Source: Phenylobacterium deserti
GTDB lineage: Bacteria > Pseudomonadota > Alphaproteobacteria > Caulobacterales > Caulobacteraceae
Assembly (NCBI GenBank): GCA_945874825.1
Contig: CAMCIK010000003.1
Span: 1-64,000 of the forward strand
Length of the DNA: 64,000 nucleotides
Reading direction: 5' to 3'
The notes under the pieces were generated by a model. The model did not search any database. It saw only the letters and a list, made by a program, of their open reading frames with translations, and was not told the DNA's origin. Of the stretch, positions 37,834 through 45,046 are shown piece by piece; position 1 is the first letter of the stretch; every line of letters starts with the position of its first letter. The translations under genes and the position numbers were made by a program.

Positions 37834-37935
37834 GGGAGCCTCACGACGCAGGAACCCTTCGACCTATAGACCCGCCCGTTTGGACAAGGAACGCCTTCGG
37901 CGTAGAAGGTCAGCATCACCGAGAGGGATGCCCTT

Positions 37936-38427
37936 ATGCTCCGAAGCGCCGTCGTCGCCACGCTTGTCTTCTGGTCACTGTCCTCCGACGCCAGGGCGTC
38001 AGACCCCGCCGGAGCGTCTGCTGGCCCGCTCCAGGCCCACATCAACCAGGCCCTCCAGTCCCCGACCGACGTCCCGTTCCGCGCGGCGGAAACCGACCTC
38101 AACGGCGACGGCCAGGATGAGGTGGTCGTCCACGTTACGAGCCGCGATTACTGCGGCAGCGGCGGATGCGTGACGCTCGTGCTCCAGCGGACGGGCCAGG
38201 GCTACCGCACCGTGATGCGCGCCTCGGTCACCCGCCCGCCCATCCGCGTCCTGGAGACCCGGCATCAGGGCTGGAAGGACATCGGCGTCACGGTTTCGGG
38301 GGGCGGTGCAGGCCCGGCCTACGAGGCCGCCCTGGCCTTCGACGGCCGCCGCTATCCCTCCAACCCCACGACGCCGCCTGCCCGCCCGGTAAAGGACGCC
38401 GCCGGCGTCACCCTGATCGCGGAATGA
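37936..38427 (+). CDS. Small exported protein with Ca-binding-like repeat
   Basis: A 163-residue protein with a signal peptide (residues 1-22, VVATLVFWSLSSDARA). The mature part includes ETDLNGDGQDEVVVHVTS, an EF-hand-like or FG-GAP calcium loop, followed by a beta-rich domain with a Cys pair in SRDYCGSGGCVTLVLQ. No named family recognised. Its stop overlaps the start of the P1 peptidase gene (ATGA), so they share a transcript. Function unknown. Confidence 0.65.
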   Translation: MLRSAVVATLVFWSLSSDARASDPAGASAGPLQAHINQALQSPTDVPFRAAETDLNGDGQDEVVVHVTSRDYCGSGGCVTLVLQRTGQGYRTVMRASVTRPPIRVLETRHQGWKDIGVTVSGGGAGPAYEAALAFDGRRYPSNPTTPPARPVKDAAGVTLIAE

Positions 38428-39482: not shown

Positions 39483-39504
39483 ACCGCCGAGGAATCTCCC
39501 GCCC

Positions 39505-39640
39505 CCCGCTTGCGCTTTTCCGCCCGTGCGACTAGGTTCCGCGCCCTCGCCACAAGGCGGTGCGCGCCCGTAGCTCAGCTGGATAGAGCCTCAGACTACG
39601 AATCTGAGGGTCGGACGTTCGAATCGTTCCGGGCGCGCCA
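39505..39640. repeat. Left copy of a 136-bp direct repeat (tRNA-Arg plus its upstream region)
   Basis: This segment aligns without gaps to 44124-44259, 4,619 bp away. The tRNA part is identical except for one base; the roughly 59 bp upstream are diverged but clearly related (shared CCCGCT, GCGCTTTT, GCGCCCTCGCC and AAGGCGGTGC blocks). The two copies flank the peptide-export island like the ends of an integrated element or an old tandem duplication. Confidence 0.8.
39564..39640 (+). tRNA. tRNA-Arg (anticodon ACG), copy 1
   Basis: A complete 77-nt cloverleaf with CCA encoded. The acceptor stem pairs GCGCCCG with CGGGCGC. The anticodon loop CTACGAA (anticodon ACG at 39598-39600) is closed by TCAGA/TCTGA; the T-loop is TTCGAAT. 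It reads CGU/CGC/CGA codons after A-to-I editing by TadA. The base at position 26 is C, where a purine is usual and where copy 2 has A. Confidence 0.97.
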
Positions 39641-39848
39641 TTTCGGTTTAAAATCGAGAACTGCCGACAGAGGGGGCTTCAAGGCCAGAACGCGACGTGA
39701 GTGTTCGTAGCAGTTCGGTTGGCGGGTAGGCAAAAGCAGATCTCTCGAACCGTAAGAGTTTGCATAGCCCCGCCTAGCCATTGAGCCTTTAATTAAAAGC
39801 GGGCTGGAGGAAATTCAGGCAATTCTGCCGAGTTTTTGAATCATTGTA

Positions 39849-41975
39849 TTAGGCGTCGATCGCGATCAGTTCCTTCGGTGCTGTCAGTACGCCGTTCTCG
39901 ACGACAAGTACGCGATCAGCTCGCCTTAGCAATGCAGGTCTGTGGGCTACGATAATCCGTGTGATCGGAATTTGCGCGACCAGTTCAGCTATGAGTTCTT
40001 CAGTTGCAACGTCCAGATTGGCGGTGCCTTCGTCTAGGACCAGGATGCGTGGCTGTCGATAAAGGGCGCGGGCTAGCAATACCCGTTGCTTCTGGCCGCC
40101 TGAGAGGGTGGAGCCCATGTCGCCGACCAACGACAGATACTGCATAGGCATCCGGCTGATGTCCTCATGCACTTGTGCGGCCATGGCAGCGCCTTGGACC
40201 CGCGCCATATCAAGATCCGGGTCGAAGAAAGCTATGTTGTCAGCAATGGTGCCCGACAATAGCCGATCGTCTTGGGCTACGACCCCAACCTGTTCCCGCC
40301 AAGACCTCCACAGGTCGGGCGTTGCGGTATGGCCGTCAAGGGTGATCATGCCGCCTGTCGGTTGACGCAGACCCAGCATCAGCTTCAGCAAGGTTGTCTT
40401 GCCCCCCCCGGAGGCTCCGGTAATGGCCAGGAATTCTCCGGGCTGAACTTCGAGATTCAACCCATGAAGGATAGCTCGGTCGGCGGCACCATATTGGAAG
40501 TCGATGTCCCTGAGACTCATAGCCCCGCGCACGTCAAGGCGGGGCGGCGTGCTGGTCGACGACGTCTCGACCTCGGCAGTGACGATGTCGGCCAGCCGAT
40601 CGAGGTGCAGCTCCAGGAATCTGAACTGAATGGCTTGATTGATCAATGCGTTCGCTCGGTCCGTAAAGGTCTGGCGGAACGACAGGAAGGCGAACAACAT
40701 ACCGACCGAGAAGCCGTCGCCCGCCAGGATCGTCCGAGCACCTAGGTAGATGACGATTACTGACTGCAGACCTGTCACCAACCCTTGAATGAAGGACATG
40801 GAAATCTGGAGCTTGCCCACGGTGATGTCGGCATTGACGGCATTGGCGTAAAGATTGCGCCAGGCGCTTTCGCGCTCGACTTCGCGGCCCATGACCTTGA
40901 TCGTCGTGGCGGCACGGACCGTCTCCATAATGTGGGACTGTTCGCGCGCGGACTCGATGATCTGTTCTTCGGTCCGGGCCTTCAGCGCCGGGTACACGGC
41001 GAAGGCCAGAGCCAGGTTTACCGCCACGGCCCCAACGACGACCGCCGTTAGCGTCGGCGAGTACAACAGTAGGATAACGACCGCCACGATCGCCATCAGC
41101 CCGTCGATGATGGCCGCAATGACGCCGCGGGTCAGAACGTCCTGGATCGCTGAGGCCGAACCGAAGCGTGAGAGAATGTCACCGACATGGCGCTTCTCAA
41201 ACCATTCGCTGGGCAGGCGAATCATGTGCCGCACCAGGTTACCAACCATCTGAAAGCTCAGCATCTGGCCGAACACCTGCAAGGCCCAGGCCCTTAAGGC
41301 CTCGATCGTCGCCTGGATGATAACCAAGGCACCGAAACCGATCGCCAGCACGGTTAACAGGTTACGATCAGCGCGGAAAATCGCCTCATCCACCACCAAC
41401 TGCATCTGAAACGGCATGGCGAAAGCCGCGACCTGAAGTGCCAGCGACAAGCCCAGGATCTGGAAGAAGGCGGGCCAGAAGCCGACCATGCGGGACCACA
41501 GGCTGGTCAGCTTGATTGGGGCGCGGGCGGTAACCTTCTCGAAGGTGTCGGACGGGCTCAACTCCAGCGCCACACCCGTAAAATGCTTCGACAGATCGTC
41601 CAGGGTATAGGTACGAGCACCTAGGGCCGGGTCGTGGATCACGGCCTTGCCATTTGCGACCGACTTCAGGACGACGAAATGGTTCAGGTCCCAGTGCAGG
41701 ATCGCGGGCAGTCGCACCCTGGGTAGCGCCGACAACTCGACCCGAAGGGCACGGGGCGCAAGCCCCAGGCTGTCGGCGAACCCCATAATGCTGCGCAATG
41801 TCGCGCCGGACATCGACAGGGTGAACCGTTGGCGTAGACCATTTAGATCGACATCATGGCCATGATACCGGGCGATCATGGCCATACAGGCGAGACCACA
41901 TTCGGCAGCCTCGGCCGCTTGGATGATAGGCAGCCGTCGGCGTCGGGCAAAGTTCAGTTCTGATGGGATTTTCAT
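39849..41975 (-). CDS. Peptidase-containing ABC exporter (C39 bacteriocin-type; CdzA-like)
   Basis: A 708-residue inner-membrane exporter that cleaves double-glycine leaders and exports the peptide. The N-terminal C39 peptidase has its catalytic Cys in AAECGLACMAMIARYHGHDVD (Cys 26), with His in HWDLNHFVVLK and Asp in IHDPALG. A six-helix transmembrane domain follows, then an ATPase with Walker A GASGGGKTT, signature LSGGQKQR and ILVLDEGTANLD. The start ATG 41975 overlaps the stop of the HlyD gene. Base composition is clearly less GC-rich than the flanking genes. Two leader-bearing peptides nearby are the likely cargo. Confidence 0.93.
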   Translation of the reverse strand: MKIPSELNFARRRRLPIIQAAEAAECGLACMAMIARYHGHDVDLNGLRQRFTLSMSGATLRSIMGFADSLGLAPRALRVELSALPRVRLPAILHWDLNHFVVLKSVANGKAVIHDPALGARTYTLDDLSKHFTGVALELSPSDTFEKVTARAPIKLTSLWSRMVGFWPAFFQILGLSLALQVAAFAMPFQMQLVVDEAIFRADRNLLTVLAIGFGALVIIQATIEALRAWALQVFGQMLSFQMVGNLVRHMIRLPSEWFEKRHVGDILSRFGSASAIQDVLTRGVIAAIIDGLMAIVAVVILLLYSPTLTAVVVGAVAVNLALAFAVYPALKARTEEQIIESAREQSHIMETVRAATTIKVMGREVERESAWRNLYANAVNADITVGKLQISMSFIQGLVTGLQSVIVIYLGARTILAGDGFSVGMLFAFLSFRQTFTDRANALINQAIQFRFLELHLDRLADIVTAEVETSSTSTPPRLDVRGAMSLRDIDFQYGAADRAILHGLNLEVQPGEFLAITGASGGGKTTLLKLMLGLRQPTGGMITLDGHTATPDLWRSWREQVGVVAQDDRLLSGTIADNIAFFDPDLDMARVQGAAMAAQVHEDISRMPMQYLSLVGDMGSTLSGGQKQRVLLARALYRQPRILVLDEGTANLDVATEELIAELVAQIPITRIIVAHRPALLRRADRVLVVENGVLTAPKELIAIDA

Positions 41976-43216
41976 CAACGGTTCCCGGCAGCGTACAGCG
42001 GGTCCAGCAACCATTCCAGCAACGACCGTCGGTCAATGACTACATCGGCGCTCAACAGCATGCCAGGCTGAAGCGGCAGGGTCTCGCCATAGGCTTCGAC
42101 GCTGTCTTTGGCCAGTTTGACCCGGACGCGGAACACCGGCTCTTGGACCTGAAGACCGGGGATTGAGACTTCGGCCGGGGCCAGCACCGTGCGGGAAACC
42201 GAGGTCACGACGCCCTGGCCTGTCCCGAACTTCTGATGCGGGAAGGCCTGGTAGAGTAGGCGCACCTCCTGGCCCTCGCGCACGAAGCCGGCGGCCCTTG
42301 AGGGGGCATAGAGCTCAGCCTCAAGGGCGGACGCTCCAGCGGTCAGGACGGCGACGGCAGCCCCGGGGGCAACGGTCTGGCCCGCTTGGACCGGTAGAGC
42401 CGCCACCCGGCCCGCCACGGTGGCGACAACCACATAGCGGCCTTGGGCTTCGGTCTGGGTCGCCTGCTGGTCCAAACCGGCCCGGGTCGAAGCCGCCTCA
42501 GCACGCACGGTCTGAAGGTCGATCGGGATCGCAGCCAGGCGAGCATTCACCTCCCCAATCTCACGCTCGTAACCCAGCGCCTGCGACGACAGGGTCGAGG
42601 CCTCCTGCTGCACCAAAAGTTCGGCGGATCGGCGGGCCTCCAGTTCGCGACGCGGCAGGAAACCCTGGGCCACCATGGTCTCGGCGCGCGTGACTTCAGC
42701 GCGTGCCAAAGCCAGCCGTTCCCCCTGCAGACCAATCCTGCGGCGAGTTTCTGCCAATTCCCGGCTAATGGCAGCACGACGAGCGATCATCTGACGCTGC
42801 TCCGCACCCAGTGCGGCCTGGGCGGCGGCGGCGCGCGACTGGGCCGCCGCGCCCTGCGCATCAAGGCTTCGGGAAAGCGCCGCAAAACTGTCGCCGCCTT
42901 CCAGCGCCGAGGATAGGTTCAAGGTTGCAATGGGTTGCCCGACGACGACCCGATCGCCTTCACGCACATGCACTGTGGATACGATCCCGCCCTGGCGCGC
43001 GGCCAGCCGGATCATCCCGGCTTGAGGCGTCAGCCAACCCACGACGGTCTCCTTGCGGGCATAAGAGGCTGTGGCCGCGAACGATGCCCCGCCGATCACG
43101 ACCGCAAACATCAGCCCGGCGAGGAGCCGAGACGAAAGGGAGGACGCCAGCACCACTTCGCCTGCGAGGCGGCGTGTGGCGTGGGTGATGGCTTCCTTAC
43201 GAAAAAGACTGTGCAC
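41975..43216 (-). CDS. HlyD-family membrane-fusion adaptor (CdzB-like)
   Basis: A 413-residue periplasmic adaptor for a type I secretion system. One transmembrane helix lies near residues 32-50 (LLAGLMFAVVIGGASFAATA). Then come a split lipoyl domain (GIVSTVHVREGDRVVVGQPIATL and VVVATVAGRVAALPVQAGQTV), a long alpha-helical coiled-coil hairpin (about 110-235), and a beta-barrel end (GMLLSADVVIDRRSLLEWL). The start is GTG 43216. It is upstream of and coupled to the exporter. A TolC-type outer-membrane channel is not in this window. Confidence 0.92.
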   Translation of the reverse strand: MHSLFRKEAITHATRRLAGEVVLASSLSSRLLAGLMFAVVIGGASFAATASYARKETVVGWLTPQAGMIRLAARQGGIVSTVHVREGDRVVVGQPIATLNLSSALEGGDSFAALSRSLDAQGAAAQSRAAAAQAALGAEQRQMIARRAAISRELAETRRRIGLQGERLALARAEVTRAETMVAQGFLPRRELEARRSAELLVQQEASTLSSQALGYEREIGEVNARLAAIPIDLQTVRAEAASTRAGLDQQATQTEAQGRYVVVATVAGRVAALPVQAGQTVAPGAAVAVLTAGASALEAELYAPSRAAGFVREGQEVRLLYQAFPHQKFGTGQGVVTSVSRTVLAPAEVSIPGLQVQEPVFRVRVKLAKDSVEAYGETLPLQPGMLLSADVVIDRRSLLEWLLDPLYAAGNR

Positions 43217-43250
43217 TGACGTTGTCAGACCTATGTTGCTGAAGTTTTAT

Positions 43251-43291
43251 ACTTCGCGATGTTGACAGCATCGAAAGTGGGAAGCAACACT
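43251..43291 (+). promoter_or_regulatory. Possible promoter and overlapping operator for the peptide genes
   Basis: A consensus -35 box TTGACA lies at 43262-43267; 18 bp later AACACT (43286-43291) is a poor -10 candidate. The -35 box is inside an imperfect palindrome: ACTTCGCGATG (43251-43261) and CATCGAAAGT (43269-43278) are near inverted copies around TTGACAG. The gap serves divergent hlyD-type and peptide transcripts, so a shared regulator here is plausible. Both calls are by eye. Confidence 0.35.
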
Positions 43292-43338
43292 GGACCCCGG
43301 CTCCGGCTCGTATGGACTTTACAACCTAGGAGGAAGGA

Positions 43339-43626
43339 ATGGCGGCTTTGGATGTCGGCGTATATGACAATTTTGTTTCAGACACGCTTCAATCAGAGAT
43401 GAGTGATCTGCGCGTTTTAGGCGACAACGAAGTTGAGTTGGTAAACGGGCAATTTTTACTACCAGGCGCTGGAGCAGTTGTTATTGGTGGGCTTGCCGTT
43501 GCTGCTGCAGCTGCCGTGATTGGATTTGGAATCGGTTACTGGATGAACCGGGATCCTCAACCCCCTCCGCCGCCGGAGCCCCCCGCCCCACCCAGGCCTC
43601 CAGCTCCATACTCCGGCTACTGGTAA
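43339..43626 (+). CDS. Putative exported glycine-zipper peptide 1 (CdzC/CdzD-like), non-canonical leader
   Basis: A 95-residue peptide with a strong ribosome site (AGGAGG at 43328-43333, 5 bp before the ATG). The leader ends LRVLGDNEVELVNGQ (residues 24-38), which matches double-glycine leaders except that the last Gly is Gln. The core opens with a Gly/Ala-rich hydrophobic segment (AGAVVIGGLAVAAAAAVIG) containing an AxxxGxxxG zipper (AAVIGFGIG), then has a Pro-rich tail (PPPPPEPPAPPRPPAP) ending in YSGYW. It diverges from the adaptor and exporter genes. Toxin function is inferred from similarity to the Cdz system. Confidence 0.65.
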   Translation: MAALDVGVYDNFVSDTLQSEMSDLRVLGDNEVELVNGQFLLPGAGAVVIGGLAVAAAAAVIGFGIGYWMNRDPQPPPPPEPPAPPRPPAPYSGYW

Positions 43627-43644
43627 CTCTATATGACTCAGCCG

Positions 43645-43680
43645 CGCTATAGCGTGGGGCTCTGACCCCGCCGCAGCGGG
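43645..43680 (+). other. Structured intergenic region between the two peptide genes
   Basis: The 115-bp gap contains the 10-bp palindrome CGCTATAGCG (43645-43654), a GTGGGG/CCCCGC hairpin with a six-base loop (43654-43671) and a CCCG/CGGG hairpin (43667-43680). There is no T-run, so it is not a standard terminator. It could adjust relative expression of the two peptides by mRNA processing or partial attenuation. No gene is evident in this gap. Confidence 0.3.
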
Positions 43681-43741
43681 CTTGGATTCTATGAGCAAAC
43701 TCGACAGTCGTAAGTAACAAACCTTCTGAAAGGATCAAGAA

Positions 43742-43948
43742 ATGAACAGTGCGACAGCAGATATTCGTGAGATGACTCACGAGGAGATTTCAGATGTGAA
43801 CGGGGGGGTCGTGGCTGAGATCTTTACAGGTGCAGTCATCCTCGGAGCTATCTACTTTGGTTTTAAAACTGGTTATGATGCTGGGAGAGATTGTGCCCTA
43901 AATCACAACCGTCAAGACGACAGAAAAAGGGGTTGCGTGGGTAAGTAA
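43742..43948 (+). CDS. Putative exported glycine-zipper peptide 2 (CdzC/CdzD-like), double-glycine leader
   Basis: A 68-residue peptide. Residues 1-22 (ending REMTHEEISDVNGG) are a canonical double-glycine leader for C39 exporters; cleavage would release a 46-residue core. The core starts VVAEIFTGAVILGAIYFG, carries the exact glycine zipper GFKTGYDAG (GxxxGxxxG), and ends in a charged tail with two Cys that could form a disulfide. An AAAGGA ribosome site precedes the ATG. It is 115 bp after peptide 1 on the same strand and ahead of a rho-independent terminator. Confidence 0.72.
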   Translation: MNSATADIREMTHEEISDVNGGVVAEIFTGAVILGAIYFGFKTGYDAGRDCALNHNRQDDRKRGCVGK

Positions 43949-44021
43949 ACGAGGAAAATCATATTCAGGGAGTGCAGGGTTGGGAAACTCCACTGAAATA
44001 GAGACATAGGTTTAGCGAAAA

Positions 44022-44058
44022 GGGAGGTCTGTTCAAAATGACAGATCTCCCACTTTTT
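44022..44058 (+). terminator. Rho-independent terminator of the peptide operon
   Basis: GGGAGGTCTG (44022-44031) pairs with CAGATCTCCC (44042-44051) with one G-T wobble across a 10-base loop, and is followed by ACTTTTTCT. It lies 74 bp after the second peptide gene, which marks the end of the peptide transcript. The 74 bp hold no gene with a plausible start. Confidence 0.75.
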
Positions 44059-44123
44059 CTGAGTTTCACGGGCGCCATCCCCTGGCGGCCACCGGTGCCG
44101 AGGCAGGGCAAACTCCGGACCGG

Positions 44124-44259
44124 CCCGCTAGCGCTTTTTCACCCTTACGGCGAGGTACTGCGCCCTCGCCGTAAGGCGGTGCGCGCCCGTAGCTCAGCTG
44201 GATAGAGCATCAGACTACGAATCTGAGGGTCGGACGTTCGAATCGTTCCGGGCGCGCCA
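44124..44259. repeat. Right copy of the 136-bp direct repeat (tRNA-Arg plus its upstream region)
   Basis: This is the partner of 39505-39640, in the same orientation, and aligned without gaps. The upstream 59 bp differ at roughly a quarter of positions, whereas the tRNA differs at one. Such unequal divergence fits selection on the tRNA after an old duplication, or an element that brought its own tRNA copy. Confidence 0.8.
44183..44259 (+). tRNA. tRNA-Arg (anticodon ACG), copy 2
   Basis: A 77-nt tRNA identical to copy 1 at 39564 except for position 26, which is A here (C there). The acceptor stem, anticodon ACG, T-loop TTCGAAT and encoded CCA are intact, so both copies look functional. The PhyH-like gene ends 10 bp beyond the CCA on the opposite strand. 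Confidence 0.97.
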
Positions 44260-44269
44260 TTTTCTCTTC

Positions 44270-45046
44270 TCACCCCTCCCGCAAGAACCGCCACGTCATC
44301 ATCAGCCTCGGCGCCGGTGACGCGTTCGGCGAAGCCGTGTGCAGGGCCCGCATGTCCATCAGCCAGAGGTCACCGGGGGTGCCGGTCAGCTCCACCACCT
44401 CGATGGGAACGCCGTCCACCTCGCCCAGGGGGCCAGGGGCGGCGGGGCGGTCGGGGTGGGCGGGGTCCATCAGGCGGGCGAAGGGCGGCAGGGCGCGCAG
44501 GCGGGCCTTGATGTCCTTCGACCTCAACTCGCCCTGGTCATTGAGCAGGCGGTGCGAGCCGGCGGCGACGAGGGTTCCGCCGGCGCCCGGGGTGACGGGC
44601 GAAAGGAAGCTGAAGACCTGGACCCCGGGGCAGCCAGCCTGAGACGTGCGGGGGACGTCGGTGTGCCAGAGGATGGCGGGCAGGCTCCAGGCCGGGGCGT
44701 TGGGCAGGGTCCAGAGGAGCTGGGGTCGGCTGAGGCCGCCGGCGGTTCCCATCCTCGCCCCTGCCAGCGCATCGAGGCCGGCGATGAGCCCGGCGGGGAC
44801 CAGGGTCTCCAGCAGGTTGGCCAGCCGGCGGTCCTTGAAGGCAGCCGGCGCCTTGCCGAGGGCGGGCCAGCGCGGCCTGTCGGCGCCCGCCAGGGTCCAG
44901 CCCTCGCCCTCGGTCCAGAGCCCCGCGCGCGACAGGAAATCAAAGACCGCGCTCCGGGCGGCGGCCAGGCCCGCGGGATCGGCGGCGTCGGGAAGGCGCA
45001 GGAGACCGCGGTCGCGGAAGACGGCGACGTCGGCGTCGGAGATCAT
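44270..45046 (-). CDS. Phytanoyl-CoA dioxygenase family protein
   Basis: A 258-residue Fe(II)/2-oxoglutarate-dependent oxygenase-like protein. The iron ligands are likely the His and Asp of ILWHTDVPRTS and the His of DMRALHTASPNASP; the 2-oxoglutarate Arg is probably in RLMMTWRF. The core GCPGVQVFSFLSPVTPGAGGTLVAAGSHRL (in parts) is PhyH-like. The start is ATG 45046 (MISDADVAVFRDRGLLRLP). Substrate unknown. It converges on tRNA copy 2 and is divergent from the nucleotidyltransferase. Confidence 0.82.
   Translation of the reverse strand: MISDADVAVFRDRGLLRLPDAADPAGLAAARSAVFDFLSRAGLWTEGEGWTLAGADRPRWPALGKAPAAFKDRRLANLLETLVPAGLIAGLDALAGARMGTAGGLSRPQLLWTLPNAPAWSLPAILWHTDVPRTSQAGCPGVQVFSFLSPVTPGAGGTLVAAGSHRLLNDQGELRSKDIKARLRALPPFARLMDPAHPDRPAAPGPLGEVDGVPIEVVELTGTPGDLWLMDMRALHTASPNASPAPRLMMTWRFLREG

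Follow-up and report, generated by a model that had tools for sequence, protein, structure and literature searches.

What does the insert between two copies of a tRNA-Arg gene in Phenylobacterium deserti encode, and what could its two small peptides be for? The locus (positions 39,505 to 44,259) lies within a stretch of 64,000 nucleotides, referred to here as the window (contig CAMCIK010000003.1, positions 1 to 64,000 of the forward strand, assembly GCA_945874825.1). The first-pass annotation had placed an ATP-binding cassette (ABC) exporter with C39 peptidase domain and an HlyD adaptor opposite two small leader peptides, termed A and B below, and had likened the four to the contact-dependent Cdz system of Caulobacter crescentus. 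All of these parts and both tRNA genes are located in the sequence and confirmed, and the Cdz interpretation is partly supported. The locus is likely to encode a two-peptide bacteriocin of the class IIb/Cdz-like kind on a compact cassette that is exchanged horizontally; the core idea of a Cdz-like peptide weapon is already known. The features are as follows.

39564..39640, plus strand: left copy of tRNA-Arg(ACG), in the ancestral left chromosomal context, aligned to the sole tRNA of an empty site in a relative (L201)
39849..42014, minus strand: C39-peptidase ABC exporter, a 721-aa open reading frame (ORF) with a possible alternative start at M14 (41975)
41975..43216, minus strand: HlyD-family periplasmic adaptor, upstream of the exporter ORF and overlapping it
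43217..43338, no strand: intergenic region from which hlyD and peptide A diverge, with AGGAGG at 43328-43333, 5 nt ahead of the ATG
43339..43626, plus strand: peptide A, 95 aa, with a 38-aa leader ending LVNGQ, a variable hydrophobic segment, a conserved G[YF]WxNRDP and a Pro-rich tail
43742..43948, plus strand: peptide B, 68 aa, with a 22-aa leader ending DVNGG, a variable transmembrane (TM) segment and a conserved KxGYDAG[RK]D tail
44022..44051, plus strand: terminator-like hairpin 3' of B, a 12-bp stem followed by ACTTTTT
44110..44182, plus strand: duplicated tRNA upstream region, resembling the single copy in L201
44183..44259, plus strand: right copy of tRNA-Arg(ACG), in the ancestral right chromosomal context

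Are A and B substrates of the adjacent exporter? A leader profile made from 15 hand-picked leaders of other exporter loci, with the window left out and the last leader residue unscored, ranks A first and B second (16.26 and 16.22) among the 65,129 12-mers of 551 window ORFs. The respective 12-mers are LGDNEVELVNGQ and MTHEEISDVNGG, and the third-ranked one (13.94) lies within the exporter itself. Both peptides retain hydrophobic anchors at −4, −7, −12 and −15 plus E(−8), the docking positions of C39 substrates being those given in the available sections of two studies (PMC6959990, PMC7018657). The double-glycine-type leaders that had been proposed are borne out by the profile for both peptides and by the terminal GG for B, but not by the leader end of A, which is GQ. 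Comparison with bacteriocin models likewise divides the pair: B scores 28.1 bits with the class IIb model TIGR03949, above the curated cut-off of 21.5, and 17.5 bits with PF10439 (Bacteriocin_IIc), below the gathering cut-off of 27.1, whereas A has no match to TIGR03949 at E<=1 and none to PF10439.

The exporter matches PF03412 (119.5 bits), PF00664 (112.1) and PF00005 (114.9), and the adaptor matches PF13437 (53.9 bits). Among the 37 ABC matches of the own genome (2.56 Mb in 103 contigs), only the window exporter includes the peptidase domain; the remaining 36 start no earlier than residue 163. The triad C39, H112 (C+73) and D128 (H+16) is spaced identically to Cys32, His105 and Asp121 of CvaB. 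However, the Gln that forms the oxyanion hole of C39 exporters at C−6 (Q15 in PCAT1, Q26 in CvaB) is replaced by Ala (A33). Among 120 C39 motifs of the fetched loci (122 rows minus two non-exporters, some loci having been fetched twice), 87 have Gln at this position and 33 have Ala, Gly or Ser instead. Counted as 99 distinct exporters, the numbers are 71 and 28, and Cys, His and Asp are kept in the Gln-less ones. On a tree of 98 exporters (quick method without bootstrap, rooted at the midpoint, with several long terminal branches), the Gln-less type takes 3 changes compared with 23.9 for shuffled labels, and one branch with a Shimodaira-Hasegawa-like approximate likelihood ratio (SH-aLRT) of 99 holds the window exporter, 27 of its 29 rows being Gln-less. 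The exporter of L093, a 529-aa ORF with a frameshift or stop in that metagenome-assembled genome (MAG), was left out of the tree, and two of the 80 loci (L079, L092) are without a full exporter ORF. A mostly alphaproteobacterial clade of C39 exporters probably lost the oxyanion-hole Gln once. In CvaB, the exchange Q26A affects colicin V secretion only minimally according to the available part of PMC3335142; hence, by analogy, loss of the Gln need not kill the enzyme and may be compatible with a working one.

Could this loss go along with a different cleavage site? The last leader residue of 52 cargo peptides was compared at a leader score threshold of 16, below which A (15.3) and B (14.1) of the window fall. 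Near Gln exporters it is G in 21 cases and A in one, near the others G in 15, A in 14 and C in one, so that A- or C-ending leaders make up 15/30 versus 1/22 (Fisher p 5.5e-4 on related rows). Some of these rows are closely akin (L158 and L159 share one leader), and the profile, trained mostly on Gln-less loci, leaves the last position unscored. Because relatedness reduces the comparison to 2 independent pairs on the tree, with which significance is unreachable, the shift in leader ends is a lead. The clade offers natural variants of a catalytic residue, possibly with a change in the last leader residue. A limited search of open-access literature listed no title that deals with leaders ending in GQ, with immunity through leaderless proteins or with C39 exporters lacking the Gln.

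The bacteriocin reading draws on how the peptides vary. Beyond the window's own, a search of 5.8 billion proteins yielded four relatives of A and four of B, and a profile search gave 15 proteins of the B kind, the earlier-found ones included; a Brevundimonas sp. SL130 relative (P0013) carries the NCBI name class IIb bacteriocin. Mean identity is 86% in the leaders versus 43% in the cores for A (10 pairs), and 94% versus 53% for B (15 pairs). Within the core of A, the hydrophobic segment (35%) and the tail (37%) flank the G[YF]WxNRDP motif (84%); in B, the TM segment reaches 39% and the tail 62%. More distant peptides of Brevundimonas, Paracoccus and Rhizobium loci have either a B-type tail (GYxxG[KR]D) or an A-type one (GYLxNR), and the leaders of two A-like peptides from Paracoccus and Rhizobium loci end in GA.

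Closely related exporters, in turn, adjoin different cargo. Those with 78-90% identity to the window exporter (L038, L040/L078, L077, L093) are neighboured by peptides with core identities of 9-37% to A or B. An 88% identical exporter, that of Brevundimonas sp. SL130 (L038, peptides identical to P0012 and P0013), is accompanied by a distantly B-like pair. Caulobacter vibrioides DSM 9893 combines an 83%-identical exporter with two glycine-rich leader peptides, L077 has two charged peptides next to a CAAX-type protease, and L093, with its exporter broken in the MAG, has one microcin-like peptide plus a 149-aa ORF that appears hydrophobic by eye. Two further close exporters were omitted from this comparison: L079 (80%), whose contig breaks off ahead of any peptide, and L039 (81%), whose sole leader peptide lies ~5 kb off beside a degraded hlyD. 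A conserved exporter with varying cargo is the pattern of bacteriocin loci and thus fits the bacteriocin reading; Cdz-like systems are described in the same way in the available sections of PMC5380434.

Among 390 genomes of the family, peptide A matches 73 (own included) at E<=0.1, the best besides its own at 6.4e-4. The weak match in G131 (E 0.018) is the first peptide of L038, and the remaining ones, unopened, were read as low-complexity hydrophobic or Pro-rich stretches. In the same set, B finds itself, two places in G131 and two weak matches at E 0.007-0.008 (G215, G050), and a B-like profile run over 385 genomes of the class finds the own genome and one weak match (E 3.3e-4). Viral contigs hold no relatives of A or B, with exporters 37-45% identical on 10 contigs; plasmids hold no B, and the best 5,000 exporter matches there are all below 60% identity. 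No phage record carries the insert DNA.

Three observations were made in passing at the loci of exporter relatives. In L046 (11221-12934), such a relative has two leader peptides ending LVSGG next to it, along with a gene that is ATP-grasp-like by eye, and the whole is perhaps a modified-peptide (graspetide-like) locus. L039 (16420-17419), from the same Brevundimonas genome as L038, has a second, seemingly degraded HlyD start and an adjacent leader peptide ending VNGA. In L038 itself, downstream of 12861 and after the second peptide, there is a very short ORF with the leader-like start MREMTAAEVGAVAGG, followed by a fragment that is GroEL-like by eye.

What kind of site does the insert occupy? 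The right-hand neighbour gene, PhyH-like by eye, has a match at E<=1e-40 in 10 of 100 genomes of the genus, own included, and the six closest of the nine others were opened (L198-L203). Between the tRNA-Arg gene and this neighbour, five of the six carry other cargo and one is empty. The empty site (L201) has a single tRNA-Arg with both flanks adjoining, and the same genome (G323) has the exporter locus L077 elsewhere. In L198 and L199, the cargo includes Vsr, a C5 methylase and a restriction enzyme of the MvaI/BcnI type, the families having been assigned by a scan of L198. A Fic protein (SoFic in PADLOC) is found in L200, and GAF and helix-turn-helix genes in L202; for these two the comparison covers the tRNA side and the right neighbour, with the L202 tRNA located by DNA match and not by ARAGORN. 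In L203, three tRNA-Arg copies follow one another, the cargo is another one, and the neighbour gene occurs as fragments. In the window, the duplication comprises the tRNA gene and some 70-100 bp ahead of it, and the scan of nine larger cargo ORFs gave no match to an integrase.

Since relatives carry other cargo at the same site, the insert counts as one among several cargoes at a hotspot, conflict genes included. The lower GC content of the island noted in the first-pass annotation stands (0.597 for 39641-44182, about 0.70 in the surroundings) and agrees with this view. At third codon positions (GC3), the peptides have 0.47/0.46, exporter and HlyD 0.72/0.74, and the two neighbour genes 0.92/0.91. 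Compact gene cassettes naturally gather at this tRNA-Arg site, and several of them are conflict systems. Left of the tRNA, the stretch 37899-38423 of the window, which holds a 163-aa ORF (37936-38427), is missing in L198, L199 and L201 and aligned through in L203; it is a second, small presence/absence site.

How might such a cassette work? Precursors A and B, separated by a gap of 115 bp, would be made from one short operon. A scan of 43217-43338 reported no promoter-like site. The terminator scan of the insert gave 4 sites compared with 3.8 expected from shuffles, the one after B having the longest stem, and the RNA fold of 44015-44066 amounts to -21.5 kcal/mol (z -4.1, i.e. 4.1 standard deviations better than its own shuffles). 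The C39 domain of the dedicated exporter may then bind the leaders, whose removal by cleavage is to be expected for B (GG) and doubtful for A (GQ). The peptides would exit via exporter, HlyD adaptor and one of the TolC-type channels, candidates for which occur elsewhere in the genome: two ORFs each contain a pair of OEP repeats, and a third match is partial. Outside, each peptide is envisaged as one hydrophobic helix joined to a conserved tail, polar or rich in Pro, and could, possibly together with its partner, insert into and permeabilise membranes of related bacteria.

Several points weigh against the bacteriocin reading. Both families are small, with few relatives, and A passes no bacteriocin model. 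Gln stands at −1 of the A leader in 5/5 known homologs; C39 substrates usually end in GG, at times in GA or GS (PMC7018657), because the C39 cleft is narrow (PMC6959990), as the available sections have it, so that Gln at this position should be disfavoured. The structure prediction that had been proposed as a check models two helices for A (3-34, 44-69) and one for B, but at low confidence, the mean predicted local distance difference test (pLDDT) being 61 and 68. Taken alone, the glycine zipper of A carries no weight, because 76% of 5,000 shuffles of its own hydrophobic segment reach as many motifs (76%, 10%, 6%, 18% and 26% for the five A homologs), and it was dropped. Finally, no immunity gene is apparent: among the 57 ORFs of at least 25 aa in 39501-44300, TM-like stretches are confined to the exporter, HlyD, A and B.

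Could the locus nonetheless be a true Cdz system, that is, surface-retained glycine-zipper proteins that kill on contact only, with immunity from elsewhere? This is rather improbable. The gene plan is shared: the divergent layout had been listed as a difference from Cdz, wrongly so, because cdzAB and cdzCDI are likewise two divergent operons (PMC5380434). The available part of the same study characterises Cdz-like systems by peptides of 60-151 residues with a leader ending G[G/A/S], a polar end and one or two glycine zippers without proline or charged interruption, and by a Type I secretion system within 10 kb. With 95 and 68 aa, both peptides have the size, and secretion genes are adjacent, with starts at distances of 0.12 kb (hlyD) and 1.3 kb (exporter) from A; the leader end agrees for B (GG) and disagrees for A (GQ). 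A polar end is given by the charged 27-aa tail of B and, more loosely, by NRDP plus the Pro-rich tail of A. Of the zippers that had been claimed, AAVIGFGIG in A is uninterrupted yet no better than shuffles, and GFKTGYDAG in B contains charged residues, as do the further B stretches AIYFGFKTG and GYDAGRDCA. Furthermore, G, A, V and I amount to 44% and 41% of the presumed mature peptides versus 75% in CdzC/D (PMC5380434). The DSM 9893 locus, with its related exporter beside two glycine-rich peptides, points toward Cdz and served as the nearest stand-in at hand for CdzA-D of strain CB15N, the Cdz comparison itself covering gene plan and published features. Of the four Cdz-type components once claimed, exporter, adaptor and two leader peptides are thus present, whereas the A leader end deviates and the zippers are doubtful. 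The clearest difference is the lack of an immunity candidate in the insert. No CdzI-like small TM ORF was found there, the wider genome having been searched only with a profile of leaderless paralogs, although immunity genes are hard to find in Cdz-like loci (PMC5380434) and a small ORF with two TM-like stretches follows the peptides of DSM 9893.

The missing immunity gene raises the question of how the producer survives. An explanation that is unlikely makes B the sole exported toxin, with A docking uncut owing to its Gln at −1 and staying as a membrane-anchored immunity or gating partner. The GQ end is invariant (5/5) while the docking residues are kept, and the insert has no other immunity candidate. 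In two relatives, a leaderless single-TM ORF with a B-type tail, for which the same role is proposed, lies between two leader peptides (L038 12498-12677; L081 287-454, a Paracoccus MAG, in which the peptides are on the same strand as hlyD and not divergent). It could be a toxin-like immunity protein or a chance ORF, given that it overlaps the second peptide by 17 bp (L038) or 11 bp (L081). Between A and B of the window there is no such ORF, and a leaderless-paralog profile finds in the own genome only B and, weakly (E 0.003), A. On the other hand, A-like peptides of Paracoccus and Rhizobium end in GA, so that the A class is cuttable elsewhere, and the exporter clade may simply accept other −1 residues. 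A more speculative and distinctly doubtful version combines both thoughts: the Gln-less clade would accept GA, GC and even GQ leaders, B would be released as toxin, and A would be held at the exporter or in the membrane for immunity, a job that the leaderless paralogs of Brevundimonas and Paracoccus would do as well. If true, immunity would consist of a toxin look-alike that is never released.

Alternatively, A and B might be exported signalling or surface peptides without toxicity, which is very unlikely. C39 exporters also carry out pheromones, according to the available part of PMC7018657, and an insert lacking an immunity gene would suit a harmless product; against this stand the hydrophobic membrane segments, the bacteriocin model passed by B, the different cargo on related exporters and the presence of conflict-type cargo at the same hotspot in other genomes. 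That the cassette is decaying or incomplete, no longer working after loss of an immunity gene, is likewise very unlikely despite the small family and the missing gene, as none of the four ORFs is interrupted, A has a good ribosome site ahead of it, conservation extends over leaders and tails, and the stable terminator-like hairpin comes directly after B, so that nothing seems cut away there. If the favoured two-peptide bacteriocin is indeed toxic, it adds a small group with shared leader, variable membrane segment and GY-type tail to the few alphaproteobacterial peptide weapons, and illustrates different cargo on closely related exporters.

How does the locus compare with known systems? With Cdz (CdzABCDI of C. 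crescentus CB15N, from the same bacterial family), it shares a pair of type I exporter genes oriented divergently to an operon for two peptides, and small leader peptides with hydrophobic cores; it differs in the immunity gene, not found in the insert, the GQ of A, the charged zipper of B, the lower G/A/V/I content and the conserved GY-type tails. Class IIb bacteriocins usually have an immunity gene. The lactobin A/cerein 7B family of this class (TIGR03949) resembles the locus in the above-cut-off match of B and in two adjacent peptides with double-glycine-type leaders, whereas the locus has a Gram-negative exporter with HlyD adaptor, an unmatched A and no immunity gene. CvaB, the colicin V exporter, and PCAT1 share the ABC domains and a C39 domain with Cys, His and Asp, at identical spacing in CvaB, but have Gln in the oxyanion hole where the window exporter has Ala. 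Brevundimonas sp. SL130 (L038) has a first peptide of another type, a second leader ending GC and the extra leaderless TM paralog, and yet it shares with the window an 88% identical exporter, the divergent peptides and a B-like GYEAGKD...NR tail.

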